Positions 17,942 to 21,298 of a DNA stretch of 64,000 nucleotides are shown piece after piece; the first letter of the stretch is position 1, and every line of letters starts with the position of its first letter. The stretch is taken from contig JACOTM010000012.1 of assembly GCA_016178305.1 (NCBI GenBank), positions 1 to 64,000 on the forward strand, given 5' to 3'. This DNA is from Flavobacteriia bacterium (GTDB lineage: Bacteria; Bacteroidota; Bacteroidia; Flavobacteriales_D; Crocinitomicaceae). The position numbers and the translations under genes were made by a program. A model generated the notes under the pieces. The model was not told where the DNA came from, made no database searches, and saw only the letters and a list, made by a program, of their open reading frames with translations.

Positions 17942-17971
17942 TTTGATATGTTATAGTTATAACTAATTTTA
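17942..17971 (+). promoter_or_regulatory. Candidate Bacteroidota promoter (TTTG-N18-TAATTTTA)
   Basis: TTTG at 17942 and TAATTTTA at 17964 resemble the -33/-7 consensus (TTTG ... TAnnTTTG); the ATG at 17995 lies just downstream. Confidence 0.4.
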
Positions 17972-18016
17972 CTTCAATTATTAAATCATTAAAAATGAGA
18001 AAAATTTCTAACTATT

Positions 18017-19648
18017 TTGATTTTAAATCAAAAAATCAAAAAATCAAAAAATCAAATTGTTCTAACTACCAAAAAAATTACTCTATTTTTTAGTGTTTTT
18101 TTCGTAAATTTTGGTGTAAATTCTCAATCTGACATTGGATCATTACGATTGAATGCTAAGGATGGACAAGGGTTTGTTCTTATGAATCAACCTAAATTAT
18201 CAAGTTATTCCTGCTGGAGATTTGTATTTTCTGAGAGAACTGGAACACCCACAGCAATGCATCCCGACGGGATTATTCCATTAGATAATATTACGGTTTG
18301 TGGCAAAAATTACGTTCAAGTTCCCGCTTCGTATAGGTATGATAGGAAAAGAGATATTATTATGACAATATATGGTACAAATAAAACTTCAGAAGTAAAA
18401 GTTTTATCAAATGTTAGATTAGGTAATTATACAGGACCAGCGAAGCAACAGCCCGGCACATTAAATCCTTTATTTAGATGTGCTGCAGTTTGTGATGGTA
18501 ATTTATATCAAGGACAATCTTACGCTTATGCATTAAAGATATATGAAAAAGCCACAACAAGTCAACCAAATGGTACAGGAGAAACTTATATGTCTTTGGA
18601 GGGAATAAATTCAGCGTTGGTAAATAATGAAATAGTTGTACCTTATTTCGGATTTTATTCGGTAACACAAGCAAATGCATGGGCTGGAGCCAGAAGTAAT
18701 AATACTATGACTATTGAGCAATATAGATCTGCTTTTTTTGATTATCCTATTTCACCTATGTTAAACACAGATCAACTTGAAGGAGGAGTTGTAATTCGAG
18801 ATCCAAATGGCACACCAATTAATTTACATACGGATTATTATATGATTAAGAAAGATTTAGGACCATTTGAAAATGACAATCAATTATTAACGGGTAATTA
18901 TGATTCATGGGGTTCAGATTGTAATAATGGCAATGCAACATTAGTTGGGTTTATTAATTTTTTTAATAATTATGCATTAGAAAAACCGAATAATTTTGTA
19001 GAATTGGCATGTTGGGGAAATGGGTATTCTGTAAGTGATGAGGGAGATTTAGAGAATAGTTCTCCATGTGGAGAAGAAACCTATAATTCTTTTAACCAAG
19101 ATATTGATGTTTGGGAAGTTGCACAATGGATGGCAGGATGTAATCCTACTGCTGATCCTCATTTACACCCACACATTATAGTAATGTTAGAACTTGCACC
19201 TATAGGAGGAGGAAACCCAAATCCAATATATTCTTCAAAAAGCGAATTTGCACGAATAGGTGAAAAAATAACAGTTCCAGCAAATTTATATAAATTAAAA
19301 GTAGCATTTAGCGATGGTACTTATAAAGAATTAGTTATCGAAGCCAAACAAACATATACTTATACAGCATCTATAAAAGATTTAGTTGCACCGTTAATTT
19401 ATCCTGTTCCAATAATTGGAGATAAATTTACAGTACAGTTAGAATCTAGTATAGCAACTTCTTTTTTATATGAGTTGTGGGATGGTAATGGACATAAAAT
19501 ATTAACAAGAAAAATGGAAGTTGGCGTAACAAATGGAACGCCTTATGACATTAATGTTAATTCTGATAGTCCAATTCCATCAGGGACATTAATACATAAA
19601 TTTATTTTTTCTGATGGTTCAATTAGAACAATTAATACGTTAAAATAA
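18017..19648 (+). CDS. Secreted protein of unknown function with T9SS-like C-terminus; start codon ambiguous
   Basis: ORF from TTG 18017; signal-peptide-like KKITLFFSVFFVNFGVNSQ; C-terminal PVPIIGDKFTVQLESS...IPSGTLIHKFIFSDGSIRTINTLK resembles a sorting domain. The nearby ATG at 17995 is out of frame. Confidence 0.75.
   Translation: MILNQKIKKSKNQIVLTTKKITLFFSVFFVNFGVNSQSDIGSLRLNAKDGQGFVLMNQPKLSSYSCWRFVFSERTGTPTAMHPDGIIPLDNITVCGKNYVQVPASYRYDRKRDIIMTIYGTNKTSEVKVLSNVRLGNYTGPAKQQPGTLNPLFRCAAVCDGNLYQGQSYAYALKIYEKATTSQPNGTGETYMSLEGINSALVNNEIVVPYFGFYSVTQANAWAGARSNNTMTIEQYRSAFFDYPISPMLNTDQLEGGVVIRDPNGTPINLHTDYYMIKKDLGPFENDNQLLTGNYDSWGSDCNNGNATLVGFINFFNNYALEKPNNFVELACWGNGYSVSDEGDLENSSPCGEETYNSFNQDIDVWEVAQWMAGCNPTADPHLHPHIIVMLELAPIGGGNPNPIYSSKSEFARIGEKITVPANLYKLKVAFSDGTYKELVIEAKQTYTYTASIKDLVAPLIYPVPIIGDKFTVQLESSIATSFLYELWDGNGHKILTRKMEVGVTNGTPYDINVNSDSPIPSGTLIHKFIFSDGSIRTINTLK
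18026..18056 (+). repeat. 8-bp tandem repeat (AAAAAATC)x3 with partial flanking units
   Basis: AAATC-AAAAAATC-AAAAAATC-AAAAAATC-AAA read directly at the 5' end of the ORF. Confidence 0.9.
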
Positions 19649-19699: not shown

Positions 19700-21298
19700 A
19701 TGAAAACAATATTATTTACTTTATTTCTGATTTCTAATTTGGCTTACTCACAAAACAACTGGCAAATAACCGCCCAAGCTTGTATAGGAGGTGATCAGTC
19801 AGAAGGATTAATAGGGACGTTAAAATTGTCAAATGGATATAACTTGTTATATGGAAGATCGAATTCAGGAATATCGGGCGATAAAACAGAGTTGAATTAT
19901 GGATTAGCAGATTATTGGTTGGTTGCTATCGATGATAATTTGACAATTCAATGGCAAAAAACAATAGGCGGTAATTTAAACGATCAAATTTCTAAAGTAA
20001 TTGAATCTCAAGAGCATTTTTTATATTTAACAGGTTATTCTGAATCAGATATTACGGGAAACAAATCTGCTATAAATTATGGAGGAACAGACACTTGGGT
20101 CGTAAAAATGGATTTAAATGGTAACATTATTTGGGATAAAAGTTATGGTGGCAATCTTGGAGATATTGGCTCAGACATTATTGAACTTGAAAGTGGAAAT
20201 TTAATATTATTAAACACTTCATCATCAGATGTTTCTGGAAACAAAACATCTTTAAATAAAGGCTCAAATGATTATTGGTTAGTTAAAATTGATTCAGATG
20301 GATTTATATTAATGGATCAAACTTTTGGTGGAATAAACAATGATGTCTCAGGGAGTGTATTAAAAATCAATCAAAATCAATTATTGTTAGATGGATTTTC
20401 GAACTCTTCTATATCAGGGGATAAATCAGAAAACAGTTATGGATTGAATGATGGTTGGTTAATAAAAATAGATACAAATGGGGCAATTATTAATGATTTT
20501 ACATTAGGTGGGAGTGGAGATGATTATATTAAAATAAATAATATGCTAATAATAAATAATTTATTGTTTTTAGTTGGACAATCAAATTCTCCAATTTCTG
20601 GAAATAAAATGGTATCTAATTATCAAAACTCAACCGATTGTTGGATTGTAAAAATGGATGAAAACTTTAATATTATTAATCAAATAGCAATAGGGTCAGA
20701 TAGTACTGAAATTCCTTCATATATTAGTGTATTTAATACTAATTTGTTAATTAGTACGGCATCTTATTCTGGAATCAATCAATTCAAATCAGAAGCGAAC
20801 CATGGGAAATTAGATAATTGGTATTTTGAAGTTGATGAAAATTTAAACTTTTTAGGAAATAAATCATTTGGCTCAAATGGGTATGAATCACTCGCGTTTA
20901 CTTTACAGAGTTCAACAACGGAATTATTACTAGCTTCTTATTCTGGAGGCAAAAACACAGGAGATAAAACATGTGTAGGTCATAATACAAACAATACCAG
21001 TACTTCACCATCAGATTTTTGGGTTTATAAAGTTTCAACAGATGCAGGAATAAAAGAACAAGAAATTGATAAATTTCAAATTTTTCCAAATCCAATAATT
21101 AATGCGTTTATCATTCAAACAGAAAATCAGATTGATCGAATTGAAATACTAGGAAATGATGGAAAAATCGTTCTAGAAAAAGAATTTTCAGATAAGAATT
21201 ATTATGTTAACTCCAATGAATTACAAGCTGGAATTTATTACTGTAAAATAGTAGATAACAATGGAAATTTAGTAATTAAAAAGTTGGTGAAAGCGTAA
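19700..21298 (+). CDS. Secreted repeat (propeller-like) protein with type A T9SS sorting domain
   Basis: Signal peptide; repeated motif SGxKxxxNxGxxDxWLVKIDxxGxIxxxxxxGG; C-terminal IFPNPIINAFIIQTENQIDRIEILGNDGKIV...LQAGIYYCKIVDNNGNLVIKKLVK. Confidence 0.85.
   Translation: MKTILFTLFLISNLAYSQNNWQITAQACIGGDQSEGLIGTLKLSNGYNLLYGRSNSGISGDKTELNYGLADYWLVAIDDNLTIQWQKTIGGNLNDQISKVIESQEHFLYLTGYSESDITGNKSAINYGGTDTWVVKMDLNGNIIWDKSYGGNLGDIGSDIIELESGNLILLNTSSSDVSGNKTSLNKGSNDYWLVKIDSDGFILMDQTFGGINNDVSGSVLKINQNQLLLDGFSNSSISGDKSENSYGLNDGWLIKIDTNGAIINDFTLGGSGDDYIKINNMLIINNLLFLVGQSNSPISGNKMVSNYQNSTDCWIVKMDENFNIINQIAIGSDSTEIPSYISVFNTNLLISTASYSGINQFKSEANHGKLDNWYFEVDENLNFLGNKSFGSNGYESLAFTLQSSTTELLLASYSGGKNTGDKTCVGHNTNNTSTSPSDFWVYKVSTDAGIKEQEIDKFQIFPNPIINAFIIQTENQIDRIEILGNDGKIVLEKEFSDKNYYVNSNELQAGIYYCKIVDNNGNLVIKKLVKA

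Follow-up and report, generated by a model that had tools for sequence, protein, structure and literature searches.

Within the window, the whole stretch of 64,000 nucleotides analysed here, a gene for a secreted protein carries a short perfect tandem array between an ATG (17995) and its signal peptide (Table 1). According to Tandem Repeats Finder, the array is 32 bp long with a period of 8 and consists of 4.0 copies of AAATCAAA with a 100% match, beginning 10 codons downstream of the ATG. A preliminary description of this locus had the sequence and coordinates right, but not the count: what it described as three AAAAAATC units corresponds to 4.0 copies of AAATCAAA.

Table 1 Features of the locus (positions in the window).
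Feature	Position	Strand	Evidence
Candidate promoter TTTG-N18-TAATTTTA of the Bacteroidota -33/-7 type; homologs conserve only its -7 part	17942..17971	+	Sequence comparison
Conserved translation start context and ATG start codon (17995-17997)	17981..17997	+	Same motif before the ATG of G010:C170, G010:C87 and G000:C39
Reading frame from ATG, 32 aa then TAG (predicted OFF register)	17995..18093	+	Sequence, frame script
Inverted repeat TTTTGATTT-T-AAATCAAAA linking leader and first repeat unit; also in ortholog	18015..18033	+	Sequence, RNA fold
Long ORF, TTG start in sequenced register; secreted-protein family outside Pfam/NCBIfam; signal peptide to ~18127	18017..19648	+	
Proposed slippage switch: tandem array of period 8 bp with 4.0 perfect AAATCAAA copies	18025..18056	+	Tandem Repeats Finder, repeat census, frame script, simulation
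C-terminal domain resembling T9SS type A sorting domain	19388..19645 (approximate limits)	+	hhalign; weak TIGR04183/PF18962 matches in 2 of 16 members
Downstream partner gene: secreted protein, T9SS type A sorting domain	19700..21298	+	TIGR04183 E 1.6e-8, PF18962 E 4.6e-9

As sequenced, with four units, the frame opened by ATG 17995 reads MRKISNYFDFKSKNQKIKKSNCSNYQKNYSIF* and closes after 32 codons, as had been described. The long ORF (543 aa) lies in another frame, and its sole start codon is a TTG. When the number of units is varied by script, ATG 17995 gives a full-length protein of about 550 aa at 2, 5 or 8 units and a peptide of 20-40 aa at 1, 3, 4, 6 or 7 units. One extra 8-bp unit restores the long ORF, as proposed, whereas the ON states given earlier, 4 (or 1) units, become 2, 5 and 8 in the 4.0-copy counting. 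The repeat unit is stop-free in all frames, a requirement for such a switch. Because a unit of 8 bp is not divisible by 3, every step is predicted to shift the signal peptide and the mature protein in or out of the frame of ATG 17995; a period of this kind within the 5' coding region, with unit changes that toggle between full length and early stop, is what characterizes a slipped-strand translational phase-variable locus. Judged by its reading frames, the assembly is in the OFF register, one unit short of ON, in line with the earlier view that the gene is OFF or low in this assembly.

The use of ATG 17995 is supported by its context. The word AAATCATTTAAAATGA, or a near-identical one, precedes the ATG in four family members including the window gene, and a TAnnTTTG-like -7 motif lies just 5' of it, with counterparts TAATTTTG in G010:C170 and TACATTTG in G010:C87 and G000:C39. 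The A-rich surroundings of the ATG had been pointed out before and prove to be conserved; of the promoter-like TTTG-N18-TAATTTTA, only the -7 part recurs in homologs. ATG 17995 is likely the start used. The TTG at 18017 has no such context and, because the ATG context is common to homologs, is unlikely to be the main start, even if a weak use of it is compatible with the data. The idea that the leader is a mobile 5' cassette was rejected, as a DNA search of six genomes of the genus returned no good copy besides the ortholog.

The array is beyond chance, as is expected of a slipped-strand phase-variable locus. Simulating 36 Mb under an order-5 Markov model derived from 1.79 Mb of the window's genome (G000; GC 30%) yielded no array of period 8 that reached 20 bp and about 2.9 copies. 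In that same 1.79 Mb of real sequence, all other period-8 arrays are shorter than the window array, which also ranks in the top four by length across periods 2 to 12. Among 99 related genomes, the 21-mer AAATCAAAAAATCAAAAAATC is restricted to the window locus and its ortholog. Other A+T-rich 7/8-mer arrays are present in the window's genome, indicating that slippage-made arrays are one of its general features; these are real, but being mostly intergenic heptamers or located at contig ends, they were not retained as an explanation of the window array. Intergenic ATTCAAA-type heptamer arrays occur immediately 5' of ordinary genes (L082 1479-1503, L102 11705-11728) and are apparently general in this genome. 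Two contig ends (L113 1-58 and L167 11424-11457, on G000 contigs C12 and C75) are made of the same TTGGATT heptamer array, in 8.3 and 4.9 copies, and probably reflect an assembly break in one long array. The window itself starts with a repeat-rich region of large imperfect tandem repeats (279- and 252-bp units, 16-1030).

A second species of the same genus (G010) has an ortholog with 69% amino acid identity and the same upstream neighbour gene. Its array matches the window array at 31 of 31 bases, and the ATG frame relates to the long ORF in the same way: the gene is also predicted to be OFF, with 39 aa from the ATG and full length when one unit is added. No difference in unit number or register is seen at this array between the two species, each represented by one genome. 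The ORF is intact in both, with a dN of 0.225 and a dS of 1.45, from which we infer that the protein is maintained, and that purifying selection holds the gene despite an ATG that is out of frame in both orthologs, a combination characteristic of phase-variable loci. That the best start is out of frame could also come from a decaying pseudogene or an assembly error, yet both are hardly credible: gene decay is excluded by 543 codons that stay open in two species under strong purifying selection, and two separate assemblies agree on the array.

A paralog, G010:C164, has a 7-bp array (AAAAATC, four copies) at the same place. Each of its units differs from the window unit by one A, which suggests unit turnover. 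The ATG at the conserved place is out of frame and would be ON at 3 or 6 units, and a second ATG, immediately 5' of the array, is in frame with the four units present, so that internal starts may give a graded rather than a strictly on/off output. All three 7/8-bp arrays are in the same register (chance 1/9).

A rival explanation is that the gene is ON as sequenced, from the in-frame TTG 18017 or another internal start, with the array encoding a conserved and mostly static Lys/Asn/Gln-rich n-region of the signal peptide. A conserved internal start would also produce the shared register, the TTG is conserved in the ortholog, G010:C164 has an ATG at the corresponding place, and the array bases are fully identical compared with about 54-72% in the flanks (promoter to ATG 47/65, signal peptide 42/70, further upstream 73/134; the leader stands at 26/30). 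Identical repeat bases are, however, also expected from homogenisation by slippage, and the TTG is without the A-rich context of the ATG. We consider this explanation unlikely, also because slippery tracts at the same place in other members, mostly out of frame, make switching a habit of the family (see below). Internal initiation may still give some product, considering the shared register and the in-frame ATG of G010:C164.

Alternatively, the frame might be bridged during expression, by RNA polymerase slippage on A-runs or by a ribosomal +1 shift, so that four units would always yield some fraction of the product. Three A6 runs and a conserved hairpin at the start of the array are compatible with this. 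The RNA fold of the inverted repeat has an energy of -5.8 kcal/mol (z -2.4) in the window and -7.6 (z -2.0) in the ortholog, but it is not significant in G010:C164 (z -0.8). Moreover, runs of six A are short by the standards of transcriptional slippage, the frame would have to change by +1 (or -2), none of the known +1 shift sites was recognised, and the G and C runs of other members are left unexplained, making this bridging highly improbable. An RNA hairpin as the main device was also rejected, as it is weak and inconsistent among the array genes. The inverted repeat, kept in the ortholog, might promote slippage.

The mature domain of the window protein corresponds to no Pfam or NCBIfam family model. 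Members of its family, found by protein similarity and not by their tracts, are distributed patchily, in 26 of 399 genomes of the order and in 6 of 114 genomes of the family to which G083 belongs; a phylum-wide search of 396 genomes (E 1e-25) gave no member outside the window's genome. The gene family, seen only in this order, and its setting appear to be new. The C-termini of the family resemble T9SS sorting domains at the profile level (hhalign probability 90%, E 1.5e-6). TIGR04183/PF18962 match weakly in 2 of 16 members; the window protein has no match to these models and stays below the curated cut-off for T9SS type A cargo. A Foldseek match to the T9SS chain 8gl8_D comes from a low-confidence model (mean pLDDT 50); structure prediction was not used as a guide to function, and Foldseek matches beyond the C-terminal domain were set aside. 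The family is probably exported by type IX secretion. A secreted-protein gene lies directly 3' of most members. At G000:C39 (locus L088), a poly-G paralog in the window's own genome (G8, predicted OFF), three tandem copies of the T9SS-sorted partner gene follow.

Ten other members carry a run of 7-17 G or C between codons 11 and 28, within the signal peptide or immediately after it (Table 2). Together with the three arrays, this brings the repeat-bearing members to 13; as sequenced, 2 of them are in frame and the remaining 11 are not. A G or C run of 7 or longer is present in 10 of 27 family 5' ends and in none of 20 directly downstream genes (Fisher P 0.0025), and other flanking DNA has two in 134,847 nt, both in one nearly identical locus pair. 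The number expected in the 27 family 5' ends is 0.08 (P ~7e-19, to be read as an order of magnitude only, since poly-G members made up 5 of the 16 alignment rows behind the order-wide search and 10 of 27 may thus carry some selection).

Table 2 G and C runs at the 5' ends of family members, with the state predicted from the reading frame.
Member	Run	Predicted state as sequenced
G010:C87	G7	ON
G000:C39	G8	OFF, ON at 7
G083:C19a	G10	OFF, ON at 9
G083:C19b	G10	OFF, ON at 9
G083:C18	G8	OFF, ON at 9
G406:C356	G8	OFF, ON at 7
G406:C80	G8	OFF, ON at 9
G136:C119	G9	OFF, ON at 8 or 11
G168:C45	G10	ON
G142:C29	C17	OFF, ON at 16 or 19

We observe both differences in tract length and both phases among homologs, with G7 (ON) in G010:C87 against G8 (OFF) in G000:C39, and C17 in G142 against no run in its close relative in G027. 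The proteins of the latter pair are nearly identical, indicating that tracts come and go quickly. In a maximum-likelihood tree, the three array genes form one clade whose sister is a pair of poly-G paralogs of the same two species; related genes therefore use different tract types. Apart from C17, the G142 genome has no G or C run of 8 or more, while G083, G168 and G406 have many G8 runs elsewhere; the runs elsewhere that we looked at are mostly deep inside genes or between genes. Poly-G as a genome-wide switch programme was rejected for the window's genome, where other runs of G8 or more are few and mostly intergenic or within ordinary genes. Outside the family, a C9 run in G168:C15 (L241, 1501-1509) lies where two overlapping frames of a secreted protein (173 and 517 aa) meet, and is a candidate phase-variable gene.

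The array is very probably a random on/off switch, that is, a translational phase-variation switch (contingency locus) operating by slipped-strand mispairing, because relatives across the order have other slippery repeats, mostly G runs, at this place, in most cases in the OFF state. The preliminary description had proposed the locus as a candidate of this kind, and independent slippery tracts at the same place in 12 other members, with 11 of 13 out of frame, support it. Mispairing would add or remove whole 8-bp units, at a rate that we can only presume. At 2, 5 or 8 units the cell would make a full-length secreted protein whose n-region is long and rich in Lys/Asn/Gln, and at other unit numbers the short peptide. 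Four units are few, and well-studied switches usually have more, which counts against a switch. More broadly, different slippery tracts (8-bp, 7-bp, poly-G, poly-C) would serve at the same place in a patchy family with a second secreted-protein gene 3' of it. Probably, this undescribed, order-restricted T9SS-like family of Flavobacteriales forms a dedicated phase-variable system: unrelated tracts would have arisen repeatedly at the signal peptide, and export of the first protein of a two-gene secreted cassette would be randomly switched.

Most of what is known about phase variation by slippage comes from host-adapted Proteobacteria. In Campylobacter, Neisseria and Treponema, G tracts about 8-11 long, located within the 5' coding region or close to it, set the frame of surface genes, as they would in the poly-G members described here; the runs of the present family differ in recurring at the signal peptide of one T9SS-like Flavobacteriales family. 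The mechanism itself is already known, as in neuO and in Haemophilus. In neuO of Escherichia coli K1, AAGACTC heptanucleotide repeats lie in the 5' coding region, and 65.6% of 64 sequenced genomes are not in the ON register (PMC13001214). The window locus is similar in its unit that is not a multiple of 3, its 5' coding position, a full-length product predicted only at certain unit counts and mostly non-ON genomes. It may also be similar in switching a surface trait, if its product is located at the surface. It differs in that neuO is a phage-borne O-acetyltransferase gene with 3-53 units, whereas the window has four 8-bp units before the signal peptide of a T9SS-like secreted protein in another phylum. 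In the simple-sequence-repeat contingency loci of Haemophilus influenzae, slippage also toggles surface genes, and related genes rely on different types of repeat, but these repeats are mostly tetranucleotides in many units, 7/8-mers there are mainly upstream of genes, and both phylum and proteins are different (PMC2651432). The intergenic TAACTGA direct repeats of Beggiatoaceae, Cyanobacteria and some Bacteroidetes are also short, A+T-rich and near gene starts; unlike the window array, which is inside a reading frame, they mostly precede start codons and have been proposed as binding sites for regulators (PMC4679880). We found no report of slippage-driven phase variation of Flavobacteriales secreted proteins in the open-access literature, a scope that excludes most subscription journals.

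The role of the switch is a guess, perhaps escape from phages or grazers, or bet-hedging of attachment. The 13 loci with predicted ON and OFF lengths form a ready test set, and the repeated gain of different slippery tracts at one spot would point to strong selection for cell-to-cell differences in exported products.
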